Of a stretch of DNA of 64,000 bases, positions 57,075 through 64,000 are shown in pieces. The stretch's first letter is position 1, and each line of letters opens with the position of its first letter. The stretch covers positions 85,487 to 149,486 of the forward strand of contig JACZTB010000001.1 of NCBI GenBank assembly GCA_022573895.1, written 5' to 3'. Source of the stretch: Nitrososphaerota archaeon. Lineage in GTDB: Archaea; Thermoproteota; Nitrososphaeria; Nitrososphaerales; Nitrosopumilaceae. The notes under the pieces are model-generated. The model worked only from the letters and a program-made list of their open reading frames with translations. It did not search any database and had not been told where the DNA came from. The position numbers were made by a program, and so were the translations under genes.

Positions 57075-58535
57075 ATGTATCGTTCTCGTCTTGGAAATGA
57101 TTTGAATGATATTACTTTAGACTATGTTTCATCAATAGATGATGATTCTGAAATTGTACTTTATGATATTATTGGAAGCCAAGCTCATACTTTGATGTTA
57201 TTTCAAAAAAACATTATAACAAAAAATGATGCAAAAAAGATCTTGTCAGCTTTAAAACATTTAAAAAATCAAAAATTTGATTCATCATCTGGAGCAGAAG
57301 ATATTCATGAATTAATTGAATCCCTCGTCATCAAAAAAGCTGGCATGGCAAGTGGAGGAAAGATGCATACTGCAAGGTCTCGAAACGATCAGGTTGTTTT
57401 AGATATTAGAATGAAAATTAGAGACGACATTAACATTATTTGCAATTGTCTTCTAGATACCATCGAAGCTCTTGTCTCTGTGGCTAAAAATCACCAAAAA
57501 ACAATCATGCCCCTTTACACTCATCTTCAACAAGCTCAAGTAGGTCTATTTTCACATTATCTTTTGGCATATGCAGATGTTTTGTCCAGAGATTTTCAAC
57601 GACTTTATGGAACCTTTGAACGAGTAAACCAAAGCCCACTTGGTGCAGGACCTATTGGAGGAACAAGCATCTCAATTGATAGACATAGCACAGCAAAGAT
57701 GTTGGGTTTTGATGATCTTGTTGAGAATTCAATTGATGCAACAAGTACGCGTGATTTTGTAGCAGAATATGTTGCAATGATTTCAATTTTGATGACTAAT
57801 CTAAGTAGAATATCTGAAGATTTTGTTCTCTGGTCTACATCTGAATTTTCTTTTATTGAACTATCTGATGAATTTACATCTCCCTCAAGCGTAATGCCTC
57901 AAAAGAAGAATCCAGATATTTTAGAATTAACAAGAGGTAAAACTGCTGAAGTTATTGGAAATTTAACTGCAATTCTAACAACTATCAAAGGCTTGCCAAC
58001 TGGTTATGGACGTGATTTACAACAAATAAAACCATCTATTTGGTCAACATCAAGAATATCTATCAGTGCACTGTTAATTTTAAAATCAATGCTTCTTACT
58101 CTAAAAGTAAATGAAAGGCAAATGAAAAAAGTTGCAGAATCAAGTAATCTTATTGCATTAGATATATCTGAAAAATTAGTTAAAGAGGGAATTCCATTTA
58201 GAGTTACGCATAAAATTGCAGGTGTTTTGGTTCAATTGGCACATCAATCAAAAAAACCTATCTCAAAATTAACTTCAACAGAAATTAAAAAATCTGTAGT
58301 TGATACTAAAGTTAATCCAAAAATTGTTTCAAAAATTATCTCTTCTACCACTATTGTCTCCTCTCTAAAGGATAGAAAATCGTATGGTTCCTCAGGATAT
58401 GATGAACAAAAGAGAATGATTTTTGATAGAATTCAAAAGATTAACAACTATAGAACAGATGTAACTAAAAGAGAAAATAAAATCAATTCATCTATTGAAG
58501 ACTTGGAAAAACAAGTTAATGAAATAATTCAGTAA
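57075..58535 (+). CDS. argH: Argininosuccinate lyase
   Basis: A 486-residue fumarase/aspartase-superfamily enzyme that splits argininosuccinate to arginine and fumarate. Motifs: GMASGGKMHTARSRNDQVV, THLQQAQVGLF with the catalytic histidine, and the signature SSVMPQKKNPDILELTRG. Length is normal. ATG 57075 in an AT-rich context. It is the last conserved gene before the accessory region. Confidence 0.94.
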   Translation: MYRSRLGNDLNDITLDYVSSIDDDSEIVLYDIIGSQAHTLMLFQKNIITKNDAKKILSALKHLKNQKFDSSSGAEDIHELIESLVIKKAGMASGGKMHTARSRNDQVVLDIRMKIRDDINIICNCLLDTIEALVSVAKNHQKTIMPLYTHLQQAQVGLFSHYLLAYADVLSRDFQRLYGTFERVNQSPLGAGPIGGTSISIDRHSTAKMLGFDDLVENSIDATSTRDFVAEYVAMISILMTNLSRISEDFVLWSTSEFSFIELSDEFTSPSSVMPQKKNPDILELTRGKTAEVIGNLTAILTTIKGLPTGYGRDLQQIKPSIWSTSRISISALLILKSMLLTLKVNERQMKKVAESSNLIALDISEKLVKEGIPFRVTHKIAGVLVQLAHQSKKPISKLTSTEIKKSVVDTKVNPKIVSKIISSTTIVSSLKDRKSYGSSGYDEQKRMIFDRIQKINNYRTDVTKRENKINSSIEDLEKQVNEIIQ

Positions 58536-58869
58536 CTCTAATAAAAAAAAGTAGCGGGTCTAGAGGGACACATTCCATCGTAGATACTTTTCTGGGACTC
58601 AAGAACATATTTTCTTGAATCATTACAATACCATACCATCACTAGAAATAAAGTTTTTCATATATGTATTATTATTCATTTTTGCAAAATACATGAGCAG
58701 AATATCATAGTAATACAAAATTTTGGCAATGGCTAAAGAAATATCGTTCAATGATCTGATAATTTTCTAATTAAAACAAGAAAAATATCCTCAACTATTT
58801 TGATCGATACTTTTTGTTACAACACAGATCAATTTTTGTGAACCTTTATTTTATAATGATTCAACGACC
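58536..58869. other. Non-coding junction between argH and the accessory region
   Basis: 334 nt of AT-rich DNA. It starts with the tRNA-like fragment at 58553-58569. A small hairpin, caagaa and ttcttg around 58601-58618, follows. Only short frames of up to about 13 codons occur (for example MAKEISFNDL near 58730). No promoter is certain, though 58840-58860 is TATA-like before the gene at 58870. Confidence 0.5.
58553..58569 (-). mobile_element. tRNA 3'-end-like fragment, possible attachment site
   Basis: On the minus strand 58569 to 58553 reads gtccctctagacccgct, the form of a tRNA T-stem and acceptor 3' strand, followed by acttttttttatt like a terminator. No matching 5' acceptor (gcgggtc) lies nearby. 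It is exactly where conserved genes stop. A displaced tRNA 3' end beside foreign DNA is what integration into a tRNA gene leaves. The parent tRNA is not in the window. Confidence 0.4.
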
Positions 58870-59199
58870 TTGCAATCTGATTTGACATCTCTAAAAGTTA
58901 CTCATGAAAAACCTGATCGATTTACAGGATTACGTAATTCATTAAGTGTTAGTCCAATTAATGTAGTTCTTGGCGGTAAGTCATTTTCTTCACCTGAAAT
59001 TTCAGCTAATAGTACGGATCTAAAATGTTTTGAAACATGTGCATTAACTCCTAAACTAAAACTCGTACAATTCATTAGACGAAGTTATCACGTTTCAGAT
59101 TTAGATTATTCCGACAAAATTTCAACAATTACACAGAAATATGAAAAACTAATAAATTCATATCCAACTGCAATTCCCAATTTACAAGATACCAAGTAG
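58870..59199 (+). CDS. Hypothetical protein, 109 aa
   Basis: A frame from TTG 58870 (start uncertain) gives a 109-residue protein with mixed strands and helices and a C-terminal helical part (LDYSDKISTITQKYEKLINSY). No motif is recognised. It sits 17 nt before the DUF5655-like gene and may be co-transcribed with it. It could also be part of a broken gene. Confidence 0.45.
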   Translation: MQSDLTSLKVTHEKPDRFTGLRNSLSVSPINVVLGGKSFSSPEISANSTDLKCFETCALTPKLKLVQFIRRSYHVSDLDYSDKISTITQKYEKLINSYPTAIPNLQDTK

Positions 59200-59216
59200 G
59201 TGCAAGTGGAATTGGT

Positions 59217-59747
59217 TTGCCTGTAAAACTGTTTCAAATCAGTCAATATGATAATGACATTATAACTATTGATAGAATTGGTGAAGTTTCAAAAGAGGAA
59301 GCAAGGTTTGGACCAACACAAGAGGCAACGAAATCGAAGACTTGTGTAAGACTTGACGAATACTCTGAAGAAGACTATCTTAGTAGAAAGTATAAGACTG
59401 GAAACGCAAGCGAAGAGACAAGGAATCTCTACTTCAAACTAAAGAAACGAATTCTGGAAAGTTTTGAGGAGATAGAGCCACAACAGAAAAAGGCCTACAT
59501 GGGATTCTATTCAAAAGAAAATGACGCTTGTATTTGTACCCTTGATGTTGCAAAATCTAAGATAAAACTGACATATTCCATTACAACTGCGAAAAAGATA
59601 CTGTCACAATCTGATTTCATAAGAGACGTCGAAAATATTGGAATCTTTGGAGTAGGTCATTATCAATCCGAAATAAAGGATGAAGCAGACATAGAAAAGG
59701 CATTACCCTACATCAAGCAAGTTTATGATTATAAAATGAAACATTAG
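59217..59747 (+). CDS. DUF5655-like protein
   Basis: A 176-residue protein starting at TTG 59217. The C-terminal 100 residues match the DUF5655 pattern as I recall it: TRNLYFKLKKRILESFEEIE, a strand pair ICTLDVAKSKIKLTY, then FIRDVENIGIFGVGHYQSEI and a final helix. This domain is usually the tail of predicted nucleases and transport-type proteins near restriction systems; here it is nearly alone. Its N-terminal 60 residues are not recognised and could be a remnant. Confidence 0.65.
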   Translation: MPVKLFQISQYDNDIITIDRIGEVSKEEARFGPTQEATKSKTCVRLDEYSEEDYLSRKYKTGNASEETRNLYFKLKKRILESFEEIEPQQKKAYMGFYSKENDACICTLDVAKSKIKLTYSITTAKKILSQSDFIRDVENIGIFGVGHYQSEIKDEADIEKALPYIKQVYDYKMKH

Positions 59748-59792
59748 ATAAATCATTGACCTACTATTTCAGTTACAGAACCTTTGGAGAAA

Positions 59793-59801
59793 GGCTATAT
59801 A
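59793..59801 (+). promoter_or_regulatory. TATA-like box of the candidate RNA
   Basis: ggctatata at 59793-59801 lies about 25 nt before the structured stretch that starts near 59821, without any frame between, so it suits a stand-alone RNA gene. Confidence 0.45.
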
Positions 59802-59820
59802 CGATTGTCAAATCGATAAG

Positions 59821-59890
59821 GATCGGTCAAGGGGCTTTGGAGCATCTCCTCGCTTAGTTCTCCGCTATACGATTCACTCCCCTTGGCTTT
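59821..59890 (+). ncRNA. Candidate small RNA with 9-bp closing stem
   Basis: gtcaagggg (59826-59834) pairs over 9 bp with ccccttggc (59879-59887), one G-U. Inside, ggag (59839-59842) can pair with ctcc (59846-59849). A TATA-like box is about 25 nt upstream and a run of T follows (cttttgatt). It is more GC-rich than the neighbourhood and contains no coding frame. Not a tRNA by my reading. It sits between the DUF5655 gene and a minus-strand gene. Confidence 0.45.
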
Positions 59891-60008
59891 TGATTCTGAT
59901 AATTGTTCAATCATATTTTTTGTTATTAGATAAATTTATGATGCAGCATTCATCCTCCCTGTGTTGAGAAGAGTGGAAGAGATCAAATGAGTAACTAACA
60001 AAGATTAA

Positions 60009-60371
60009 CTAGATTTTTTCTATATCTATATCTCCTTCAACCAAAATTTTCTCAGCTACAAAATAAGAACGCCTTTTTGCATCAAGATAACGTCCTTTAG
60101 CAAATACATAATGAACTTTTCTTGTTATTTTATTAGGTACAGCATCCGAATCTAATGTTTCAGAACCTGTACCAATTGCCGTTTCTGCATTACGTATATC
60201 ATGGCTATCGTTACCTGTAGCATGGTCACGTACAAATTTTAGGAAAACCTTGACTAGAATTTGTTGTAATTCTTTGTTAATTTTATTCTCATCTGCTGAT
60301 TTAAACCACTTTGATATCTCCAGTTGTTCATTTTTCCAGTTTGCAACTGCTACTCCGCGAATCATTTCCAT
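60009..60371 (-). CDS. Hypothetical accessory protein, 120 aa
   Basis: A 120-residue protein, MEMIRGVAVANWKNEQLEIS..., with a helical first half and a basic second half (NKITRKVHYVFAKGRYLDAK). It contains an NDSHDIRNAETAIG stretch around residue 60. I do not recognise it. It is divergent from the gene at 60415 with 43 nt between starts, so the two share a promoter region and may be co-regulated. Confidence 0.55.
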   Translation of the reverse strand: MEMIRGVAVANWKNEQLEISKWFKSADENKINKELQQILVKVFLKFVRDHATGNDSHDIRNAETAIGTGSETLDSDAVPNKITRKVHYVFAKGRYLDAKRRSYFVAEKILVEGDIDIEKI

Positions 60372-60414
60372 ACTGTATTACAAACTTATACTTTGAAGAT
60401 AATAAAAACAAATT

Positions 60415-61569
60415 ATGAATCAAGACGACAAATTAAAAGAAAGAACAATCCTGTTGATGCGCCTATACTGGCGTGATGAAATTCACAAGATTGGAACTGA
60501 ACTAAATATAGATGAAATAAAAAAATTCGAAAATTATTGGGATTTAGATCATTACAAAGGTGCATATCAAATTGCACGAACTTTGGATGATAAAAAACTA
60601 GAGGAATTAGTTGCCAGAAACCCGCCAAAATACGTATCTCTGGGAGGATTCCAAGGAAAGCATTACTCGGTAGATAAGCGAGGTCGTATTAGTTTTAGCA
60701 GTTCCTGGCCAACAGTTAAAGAAAATATAAAAAAATCACTTGATAATTGGGGAGATAAAGCCTATTCTGTATTGAGGGCATTAATTAACAAGAAGGGAGA
60801 TTCTGCATATTTTGAACTAATAGATGAGATTGGAAAGATTTTAGGTAAAGAATACATTCCCTCATGGATTTTACCAAGGCTAGAGCCCTTAAAACTCGTA
60901 TTCAAAACTGGCAGTAACAAATACCCACGTTGGACCATACCAACTGAGATAATTCCTGTAATACAGGAGGAGTTGAAAGGGTACCAATTAGGTTTTGATG
61001 ATGAGAAAGAATTCAAGAGAACTAAATCAAAAAGAATTGCTAAGGAACAAGAGTCATCATTACTTTCCATAGAAAGGAAATTGGATAATCTTGTTGGGAA
61101 TCTGGTTGATAGAAAAAGGGAGATCAATCTTATTTGTCAAAATAGGTTCAGTACGCGATTCTTTATTGATAATGAGAAAGCCATAATGAGCATAAAGCGA
61201 CCATGTAGTAATGAAGAAGAATTCGATTACAGAATTCAAGGACTATCTTCAATCATTGACAATGTTGAAGTGGAAAAGACGAAAAAAGCGCTTAAAATTA
61301 ACGATAAAGTGAGTGGTTCAATAAACCTCATGGAATTTTTACTTGAAGAAAATGGAAAATTAAGTCATAAAAATATAATAAAAAATCTTAGAATGTTAAA
61401 AATTCTTAGAAATAAAAAATTCCCCACGCACCATGATGATGGAAAGTTTATAGAAGCCATGAATAATTTTGGCCAACAAACATTCCCACCAGATTGGGAA
61501 GTACTGTGGGAAAATGTACTTGAAGGTACAACCGAAAGTTTGAAAAAGTTCAGAGACTCCTTACAGTGA
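60415..61569 (+). CDS. Accessory protein with winged-helix-like middle and helical C-terminal domain
   Basis: A 384-residue protein of unknown family. Residues about 1-95 are an unrecognised N-terminal domain; about 110-185 look like a winged helix (KAYSVLRALINKKGDSAYFELIDEIG); about 205-235 are a coiled coil; about 300-384 form a helical domain with ILRNKKFPTHHDDGKFIEAMN and FPPDWEVLWENVL, a pattern often seen at the end of defence-type proteins. Divergent from 60009 and convergent with the nuclease at 61583. I infer a possible sensor or regulator of that nuclease. Confidence 0.55.
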   Translation: MNQDDKLKERTILLMRLYWRDEIHKIGTELNIDEIKKFENYWDLDHYKGAYQIARTLDDKKLEELVARNPPKYVSLGGFQGKHYSVDKRGRISFSSSWPTVKENIKKSLDNWGDKAYSVLRALINKKGDSAYFELIDEIGKILGKEYIPSWILPRLEPLKLVFKTGSNKYPRWTIPTEIIPVIQEELKGYQLGFDDEKEFKRTKSKRIAKEQESSLLSIERKLDNLVGNLVDRKREINLICQNRFSTRFFIDNEKAIMSIKRPCSNEEEFDYRIQGLSSIIDNVEVEKTKKALKINDKVSGSINLMEFLLEENGKLSHKNIIKNLRMLKILRNKKFPTHHDDGKFIEAMNNFGQQTFPPDWEVLWENVLEGTTESLKKFRDSLQ

Positions 61570-61582
61570 ACAAAACGATCGG

Positions 61583-62782
61583 TTATCCGACAGTAAATGT
61601 CATACCAAACCCTTGTCTGGCAGGACCAGATCTTGTAATAGCATATCCAGAACGTCTAAAATATCCCATATAGGCATATTCACTAATTCGCTTGTATCCA
61701 GATTCACAGAACTTCCTAACGTCATCAACTATTTGGTCTGATGGTACAATGTAATAATAGTCCTCAAATGCAGTTTCACCCTCCAAAACCAAAACAGTGT
61801 GCCCTTTTTCAAAAGATGAAATCTTTGTAACGAGAAGTCCATCATAGTATACTTTCAACGTGTTGTTCATTATTTGTGACCAGGGAGCAATTGCCACCAT
61901 ATCTTTATCCTGAAAAATTTGCTCCAGCGCCTCCCCAAAACGATTACGAAGACTCTTGGAAAATCTTACGAAATGGTCAGGATGGTTTATTGCTTCAGAC
62001 ACTATTGTTTTAATTTCCACGTCGTCATCGTTCACGCACAAATCAGGAAATCTCTTTTTTTTGTTCTCAATTTCAGTATCCACTTTAAAACCAAGGTCTT
62101 GGTACTGTACTGCTAATTGAGCAATCATCCTGTTATGCAATAATTCATCATAATTGCCATCAAGCTTCTTTAATTTGTCAAATTCAGATGGCAACTGATC
62201 CAAAAATTTTGCCAAAGCAGGCAGATCATATAGAAAAAAATAGAAATCTCTACCATTGTCCTTGTAGTCGTTTGCCCAATTTTTTAGAATATCTTTTTTG
62301 TTCAAAACCAACTCATTTAAAATTTTAAATGCAGAATTTGGGAAATCCAAAGGAATTCTCTGGTGATCAAAATCAACAAACTCTGAATCCCCGCTTGTAA
62401 GACGCAATCCGAATTGTCTTCCGTCATTTTCGGATGTGAAGACATCAATTACCCTTTCATTCTGATGCATGTCAGACATTTTTATTATCTGCTCTTCAAT
62501 CTTTTTCTGCTCCTCGCTTTTTGGAATCAGCAAGTCGCTGTGTTTTTTAACTTTACTTTTAGTAAAGTCTATTCTTTTGGAAAGCTCTTCTCTGGATGTA
62601 AGAGCAGTCGAATTATAATTTTTGGTATCTTCGAAATGAATTAGAAGCTGAATGTGTAAATCTTGAAATTTCTTAATATAATCAATTTCAGAAATCTGTT
62701 TGGATTCAAATTTTTTCAGAATATCATGGTATTCTTTATCCAGTGATTTATCTTTCTTAATTAGATCATCGTTAGGTTCCAT
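61583..62782 (-). CDS. PD-(D/E)XK-like nuclease protein
   Basis: A 399-residue protein. Residues 1-115 are a charged coiled coil; about 120-220 an unknown domain; about 225-300 carry a nuclease-like core, VDTEIENKKKRFPDLCVN followed by DDVEIKTIVSEA, the PD...ExK arrangement with D and E-x-K. The last 100 residues end in a glycine-rich basic tail. Such nucleases occur in restriction and abortive-infection systems. The other PD-(D/E)XK elements are consistent but not proven. Convergent with 60415. Confidence 0.58.
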   Translation of the reverse strand: MEPNDDLIKKDKSLDKEYHDILKKFESKQISEIDYIKKFQDLHIQLLIHFEDTKNYNSTALTSREELSKRIDFTKSKVKKHSDLLIPKSEEQKKIEEQIIKMSDMHQNERVIDVFTSENDGRQFGLRLTSGDSEFVDFDHQRIPLDFPNSAFKILNELVLNKKDILKNWANDYKDNGRDFYFFLYDLPALAKFLDQLPSEFDKLKKLDGNYDELLHNRMIAQLAVQYQDLGFKVDTEIENKKKRFPDLCVNDDDVEIKTIVSEAINHPDHFVRFSKSLRNRFGEALEQIFQDKDMVAIAPWSQIMNNTLKVYYDGLLVTKISSFEKGHTVLVLEGETAFEDYYYIVPSDQIVDDVRKFCESGYKRISEYAYMGYFRRSGYAITRSGPARQGFGMTFTVG

Positions 62783-62857
62783 ATCTTGTCATGTAAATTC
62801 TTTTTAAATTAAAGATTATGAAGAGCATTTAAAACTTAAAGAATAAACTGTCATGTG

Positions 62858-63193
62858 ATGTTAAGATCAGATGTAGACGTATTCTTTATTACTAGCGTCA
62901 AGAGGGAGAATAAAAAAATTGTCGGTGTTTCTGCCATCCAATCAAGGGCGATTCCTCCAGTTAGATTGTATATGGATTTGTCACACATCTATTATACCCA
63001 ATTTACTGGGAGACAGAGCGTGTTTTTAGTTCCGTATATTGCAAATGAAGATCCTTTGGAAATTTCCGCATTTAGATTGGCGGTGAAAAAAGAGGAGGAA
63101 GTCTTTACTATTGAATTGCCGAAAAACATTGAACAAAGACAAGGACTAGCGTCTCTTCTTGAATATGTAAGAATGCCAACTGATTTCATATAG
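62858..63193 (+). CDS. Hypothetical accessory protein, 111 aa
   Basis: Starts at ATG 62858 (MLRSDVDVFFITSVKRENKK); a GTG one codon earlier is possible. The protein is beta-rich, with FTGRQSVFLVPYIANEDPLE and a C-terminal helix. Not recognised. Divergent from the nuclease gene with 75 nt between. It is followed within 30 nt by a fragment in another frame. Confidence 0.5.
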   Translation: MLRSDVDVFFITSVKRENKKIVGVSAIQSRAIPPVRLYMDLSHIYYTQFTGRQSVFLVPYIANEDPLEISAFRLAVKKEEEVFTIELPKNIEQRQGLASLLEYVRMPTDFI

Positions 63194-63218
63194 ATGAACT
63201 ATGCAAGAAATGTTATGA

Positions 63219-63392
63219 GGAAAAAGAATCAACAAAGTCACAATATCAAATGAAGGTGACCGTATCAAGGTAATTCCCAAAGGCTGGGTCGATAAGGCAG
63301 TTTGGCGAGAGATTAACAACATTCTAAGACTGCATGGGTTCAGCTGGTTATCCAATGGGAAAGATATCTGTTGGATGAATCTTCTCTCCTAA
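63219..63392 (+). pseudogene. Remnant of a small protein domain without a start codon
   Basis: An open stretch of 57 codons after TGA 63216-63218 reads RINKVTISNEGDRIKVIPKG then WREINNILRLHGFSWLSNG and ends TAA. The pattern looks like a real domain, one that I believe is found at the C-terminus of archaeal proteins, but it holds no ATG, GTG or TTG near its beginning. It is therefore probably a broken gene or a frameshifted tail of an upstream gene. Confidence 0.45.
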
Positions 63393-63396
63393 TTTT

Positions 63397-63615
63397 TTAT
63401 CTTTCAAAGTATAGATTTTTGTTCCTAGAGCCAATGAATATACGATGTTTTCCTGTCGAACATTTCCATGTTTCATATCCCATTTCCTTTGGATCTGTTT
63501 TTATTGCCTCTCCATAGTCAGGAGGAAGTTGGTCGATAGGTTTAAACTCCGAATCATATCCTTGCATTCCAGATTCAAAACATTCGATTATTACTTCCTT
63601 TTCTATTTTTATCAT
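63397..63615 (-). CDS. Hypothetical protein, 72 aa
   Basis: A 72-residue protein, MIKIEKEVIIECFESGMQGY..., with two cysteines and an acidic middle. No motif known to me. It stops 4 nt after the remnant on the other strand and has an AT-rich upstream region. Its small size makes the call uncertain. Confidence 0.45.
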   Translation of the reverse strand: MIKIEKEVIIECFESGMQGYDSEFKPIDQLPPDYGEAIKTDPKEMGYETWKCSTGKHRIFIGSRNKNLYFER

Positions 63616-63837
63616 AACATGAACCCAAATTTTTATTATTTATTGTTTTAATCTTGACTTTGATTTATTTCCAAAATGTTTTTCACCAAAAACCAGCACC
63701 CGCCTATCTTTACACCTACTTGAAAATTCAGAAATTATTGAAAACGCCCTTCAACTTCCAGTGTATCATAATTCTCTGTTAAGGATCGGGTCATGGATGA
63801 TCTTTTAATAGCGATTGCTTAGTCATAATCTCACACT

Positions 63838-64000
63838 ATGGGTAAAAAGAAAGCCATTATAATAGTACCAATTATTCTTGTTATCCTTTATTTTGGTTTT
63901 CAATTTTTCCAGCAAGAAGTATCCCAAAGAGAAGCACTAAAAGATGTAGAAATATCTTTGGACGGCGTTAATGTAAATAGTGTAGGATTTACAAGTGCAA
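63838..64000 (+). CDS. Membrane-anchored protein, cut by window edge
   Basis: ATG 63838 opens a frame that reaches the right edge (54 residues seen). It begins MGKKKAIIIVPIILVILYFG, an uncleaved-type N-terminal anchor, then a charged segment and VEISLDGVNVNSVGFTSA, which resembles the first strands of LEA type 2 domain proteins common in archaea. The rest is outside the window. Confidence 0.55.
   Translation, partial: MGKKKAIIIVPIILVILYFGFQFFQQEVSQREALKDVEISLDGVNVNSVGFTSA

Follow-up and report, generated by a model that had tools for sequence, protein, structure and literature searches.

A displaced tRNA-Lys 3′ end beside argH marks mobile-element integration in a marine ammonia-oxidizing archaeon

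Fourteen nucleotides on the minus strand just past argH (58555–58568 of the window, by which we mean the whole 64,000-nt stretch of DNA analysed here) clearly mark where a mobile element entered a tRNA-Lys gene in a marine ammonia-oxidizing archaeon, and are very probably the attachment site, on the argH side, of an integrative element in tRNA-Lys(TTT). The site is characterized by a repeat of the tRNA 3′ end, empty counterparts in relatives, an integrase beside the intact tRNA, paired inverted arms and a homologous element contained on a single contig of a relative. The element fits the thaumarchaeal tRNA-targeting cryptic integrated elements, and events of this type are already well known; what is gained is one exact mobile-element boundary fixed in a marine ammonia oxidizer, and an example of how an element end that lies off the window can be foretold from a tRNA scrap of 14 nt spotted by eye.

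The window corresponds to positions 85487–149486 of contig C32, which runs 10.7 kb beyond the right edge, in an assembly of 1.80 Mb and 92 contigs (genome G000). A preliminary description had singled out a minus-strand 17-mer at 58553–58569, read as a tRNA 3′ end followed by a T-run. This 17-mer is present once in the window and as one exact copy in the genome, begins 17 nt past the argH stop (58535) and does have a T8 run behind it on the minus strand. Its tRNA-matching part is shorter (14 nt, 58555–58568, minus strand TCCCTCTAGACCCG) and comprises the T-stem 3′ strand, the acceptor 3′ strand and the discriminator G of tRNA-Lys. Of the three remaining letters of the 17-mer, the G in front is element sequence and the CT behind is part of the host trailer. 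The tRNA assignment thus holds for 14 nt and fails for the other three, and the 17-mer as a complete tRNA piece was rejected. The features of the junction and of the genes that share its sequence are as follows.

57075–58535, plus strand: argH (argininosuccinate lyase), the host gene that borders the element (NCBIfam TIGR00838, E 1.3e-145; genus synteny)
58536–58554, minus strand: host DNA that remained beside argH, the 3′ trailer and T-run that tRNA-Lys(TTT) had before integration (aligns with the empty-site trailer of G090)
58555–58568, minus strand: displaced 14-nt tRNA-Lys 3′ end, att repeat of the argH end (exact match to both tRNA-Lys genes)
C32:67021–67094: tRNA-Lys(CTT) gene
C86:57685–57758: tRNA-Lys(TTT) gene
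C86:57745–57758: twin of the 14-nt att repeat, within the intact tRNA-Lys(TTT)

A search of the 1.80-Mb genome for intact tRNAs sharing this 3′ end recovered the two tRNA-Lys genes, such that exact copies of the 14-mer number three in all (tRNA-Lys(CTT) at C32:67081, tRNA-Lys(TTT) at C86:57745 and the argH scrap). About 0.0007 copies would be expected genome-wide by chance (first-order Markov estimate), and the reversed 14-mer, used as a control, has no copy in the genome.

Comparison across the genus informs on the ancestral arrangement. In 71 genomes (73 argH places) a convergent tRNA-Lys unit lies 13–25 nt past argH; in the loci scanned for tRNAs it typically consists of tRNA-Lys(TTT) with tRNA-Asp behind it. 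In G090, the closest relative examined (argH 93% identical), the tRNA-Lys trailer resembles the flank of the scrap in the window, and because of this resemblance the simplest view of the scrap and T-run is that they are the tip and terminator of the host tRNA gene itself. The argH-side flank is hence of the host trailer type, and the tRNA-side flank on contig C86 is no longer host trailer. As a separate observation, two genomes carry tRNA-Lys(CTT), not TTT, after argH (G080, C1:380115–445646; G117, C60:1–79); the Lys(TTT)/Asp pair of G080 lies 65 kb off, as if the stretch between the two oppositely oriented tRNA-Lys genes had been inverted.

In G000 the Lys(TTT)/Asp pair sits on C86, where an intact 414-aa ORF, described below as a divergent tyrosine recombinase, starts 92 nt beyond the tRNA-Lys on its element side and is oriented away from it. 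Direct att repeats matching the tRNA 3′ end are thus found at both ends (14 nt beside argH and in the tRNA-Lys(TTT) on C86). The proposal that the scrap is a tRNA-integration boundary is supported by the intact tRNA with the same 3′ end, the integrase beside it and the empty sites: the comparison of synteny 3′ of argH, like the search for a recombinase, gave the outcome that the preliminary description had anticipated, with relatives that lack the element carrying an intact minus-strand tRNA-Lys directly there. Its forecast of an element ending rightward at an intact minus-strand tRNA stands as to orientation, which fits when C86 is placed reversed after C32, but the tRNA is on another contig.

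The far end is placed by synteny and by the homologue in a relative rather than by a read-through in the G000 assembly. That relative, the Marine Group I thaumarchaeote SCGC AAA799-D11 (G067, JOSY01000006.1), has on a single contig argH, the scrap, a 13.3 kb insertion, an integrase 78% identical to that of G000, an intact tRNA-Lys(TTT) and tRNA-Asp; in both genomes the scrap bears the T-stem variant (CTAGAGGGA or CTAAAGGGA) of its own host. We infer that the pieces on C32 and C86 are one element, split across two contigs in G000; the G067 element is continuous between its repeats. The ends of C32 and C86 do not overlap, no contig of the assembly bridges both, and the C86 end carries adapter-like bases (CTTTTCCGATCT). 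The element measures at least 20.6 kb (pieces of 16.1 and 4.5 kb), with a middle gap of zero or many kb. Its extent and terminal features within the window are listed here.

58555–64000, no strand: stretch of the element that falls within the window, continuing to the end of C32 (16.1 kb total) and, by inference, onto C86:57759–62220
58573–58600, plus strand: 28-nt terminal arm repeat TTCCATCGTAGATACTTTTCTGGGACTC (23/28 partner after the C86 tRNA-Lys, inverted; kept in the G067 element)
58599–58618, no strand: inverted repeat TCAAGAA-N6-TTCTTGA of the argH-side end (kept in 4/4 related left ends: G000, G067, G085 and G091)

Since the two contigs are unjoined, the argH-side and integrase-side ends could instead stem from two elements accreted at one tRNA, or from a composite island whose internal att fell into the assembly gap. 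An att-like motif (AAGACCTGTTCC...TTTTCTGGGACTC) does lie within the C32 part at C32:156517, and remnants in G013 and G102 speak for repeated use of the site. The motif, in the form AAGACCTRYTCCTYTGTAG-N4-TTTTCTGGGACTC, resembles a degenerate tRNA-Lys 3′ end plus arm repeat and occurs in accessory DNA (C32:156517–156552, C83:1417–1452, C86:34776–34811 and G086:C20:11507); a search of 95 genomes for the C32:156517 copy found it in just one other genome. Against such an accretion, both G000 ends match the single G067 element and the G000 arms pair together, and we regard it as unlikely.

The single-element reading is also consistent with the far side of the tRNA pair, where another element, about 31.8 kb long (C86:25679–57528, outside the window), occupies the neighboring tRNA-Asp. 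Both of its 20-nt att copies are on one contig, the tRNA-Asp 3′ end being repeated at C86:25682–25695 with a 20-nt repeat, and a XerA-like recombinase of 459 aa adjoins tRNA-Asp. Past this element lies the host gene p255 (C86:24836–25543), a neighbor of tRNA-Asp in relatives; the ancestral p255, Asp, Lys, argH order has therefore been broken on both sides, which supports the placement of C86 beside argH. Fragments of the 459-aa integrase, with insertions of about 5–9 kb on the tRNA-Asp side, were seen in G118:C1 (L166) and G013:C1 (L159), and suggest that the tRNA-Asp side has been re-used too. A broader proposal, tentative and in our estimate rather doubtful, is that the head-to-head Lys(TTT)/Asp pair forms a two-sided hotspot of the genus served by a distinct integrase family (very short core, inverted arms), which may drive tRNA-Lys/tRNA-Lys inversion.

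The arm repeat is found inside both G000 ends (TTCC..C.TAG.T.CTTTTCTGGGACTC, 23/28 positions identical, inverted), with a similar pair in G067. The arm repeats and the TCAAGAA inverted repeat are putative recombinase arm sites or regulatory structures.

Casposon insertions, too, combine a duplication at a tRNA 3′ end with inverted terminal repeats. A casposon or other transposon would account for the 14 nt as a target-site duplication and for the arms as terminal inverted repeats, and insertions of that kind do resemble the ends seen here. The resemblance is incomplete in that the argH-side repeat begins 4 nt from the 14-mer, not flush with it, and no Cas1 turned up in the proteins scanned from the C32 and C86 parts of an element whose middle may be missing. 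In G000 and G067 alike the tRNA has a tyrosine recombinase next to it, and this very improbable reading is therefore set aside (casposon duplications and terminal repeats are described in PMC6563490). A decayed tRNA-Lys duplicate or chance match with no integrated element is more improbable still: the common sequence does amount to 14 nt and no more, but the low chance expectation, the separation of the intact gene and tRNA-Asp from their conserved place after argH, the integrase that now follows tRNA-Lys and the empty-site comparison all contradict it.

Integration by a tyrosine recombinase thus remains the preferred reading, and the enzyme itself is divergent. The 414-aa ORF scores 18.7 bits against Pfam PF00589 (under the cut-off of 27.1), is not recognized in NCBIfam and PHROGs searches, and gave no match in a PDB sequence search with the single protein; a profile built for the PDB search gave a marginal XerA match alone. 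Its assignment as a divergent tyrosine recombinase is supported by a structural model (mean pLDDT 80, pTM 0.58), whose best PDB matches include XerA, Cre, XerH, Tn1549 Int and lambda Int, and by the putative catalytic residues R173, H300-G-F-R303, G331-H332 and Y342; among 12 relatives R173, G301/R303, G331-H332 and Y342 are invariant. Many relatives of the enzyme in the genus adjoin the 3′ ends of tRNA-Lys(TTT), Lys(CTT), Arg(GCG), Val(CAC), Val(TAC) and Thr(GGT), and several others have no tRNA inside the 1.5 kb examined. No relative of the integrase that would indicate a free form was found in IMG/VR, INPHARED phages or PLSDB plasmids.

Integration of pNOB8 leaves its integrase gene whole. 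The pNOB8-type integrases share with the present case a tRNA target and a gene that is whole after integration. They have a consensus of R...YxxR...Y and an att of 40–50 nt (PMC8371274), whereas here the residues read R173...H300-G-F-R303...Y342, which departs from that consensus, and the att is 14 nt. SSV1-type (suicidal) integrases (R...KxxR...Y; PMC8371274) are likewise archaeal tyrosine recombinases with tRNA gene targets, but their genes split on integration, unlike the 414-aa ORF, which is whole on the tRNA side.

Taken as a mechanism, the element-encoded tyrosine recombinase would have joined a short site of the element, bearing the final 14 nt of tRNA-Lys, to the 3′ end of the host tRNA-Lys(TTT), which would have stood about 20 nt after argH. 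The tRNA at the integrase end, far from argH, would owe its restored 3′ end to the 14-nt copy brought in by the element, and the tip and terminator that the host gene had before would have remained beside argH. The chemistry is presumed to follow tyrosine recombinases in general, and the inverted arms are candidate recombinase binding sites.

Further relatives show the site in other states. G085 and G091 have related left ends on broken contigs, a stop-ridden integrase adjoining tRNA-Lys in G085. Altered scraps are present in G013 (one contig, 6.9 kb gap, integrase fragments) and G102 (1.5 kb gap), both of which appear, from these traces, to be decayed occupants of the argH/tRNA-Lys site. With its empty, occupied and decayed forms on view in one genus, the site is useful to date and track the gain of genes in these archaea, here a defence-like cargo.

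Among 74 integrated elements from 20 thaumarchaeal genomes (Krupovic et al, 2019; PMC6563490), 39 of the 68 mapped elements were in tRNA genes, with a median att of 17 bp and a median length of 17 kb for cryptic elements (PMC6563490). The present element resembles these cryptic elements in its tyrosine recombinase, tRNA 3′ target and mostly unknown genes, and is near their median size; its att is 14 nt against their median of 17 bp, and it differs from them (PMC6563490) in the tRNA-Lys(TTT) site beside argH, the divergent integrase, the paired inverted arms and the defence-like cargo. The G067 element is alike in tRNA, orientation, integrase and matching ends, and unlike in cargo (TBP, TFB and a methyltransferase versus the defence-like genes here). 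Beyond the integrase, the sole G000-element protein with a sequence match in the G067 element is a distant HTH/coiled-coil protein (29% over 267 aa), a point against the preferred reading. The TBP and TFB genes of the G067 element are adjacent (L164:7020–8555). The cargo inside the window is as follows.

59217–59747, plus strand: ORF with a DUF5655 domain, similar to the candidate defence family PDC-S18 (PF18899, E 8.7e-7; PADLOC PDC-S18, E 2.3e-23)
60009–60371, minus strand: ORF of 120 aa, no Pfam family above cut-off
60415–61569, plus strand: ORF of 384 aa, without assigned function
61583–62782, minus strand: ORF of 399 aa, without assigned function
62855–63193, plus strand: ORF of 112 aa, without assigned function

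Past the window, a cluster at C32:150262–160174 (L034:7263–17175) encodes SIR2-like, AbiV HEPN-like, TIR-effector-like and weakly nuclease-like proteins; these similarities, with that of the DUF5655 ORF, point to a possible defence-related role for several cargo genes. Neither viral capsid nor conjugation genes were recognized in the C32 and C86 parts, between which a middle portion may be missing. A 209-aa protein (L034:16057–16686), which spans a 10-N assembly gap, is similar to the C-terminal part of phrog_11768 and phrog_1907 (phage DNA polymerase).
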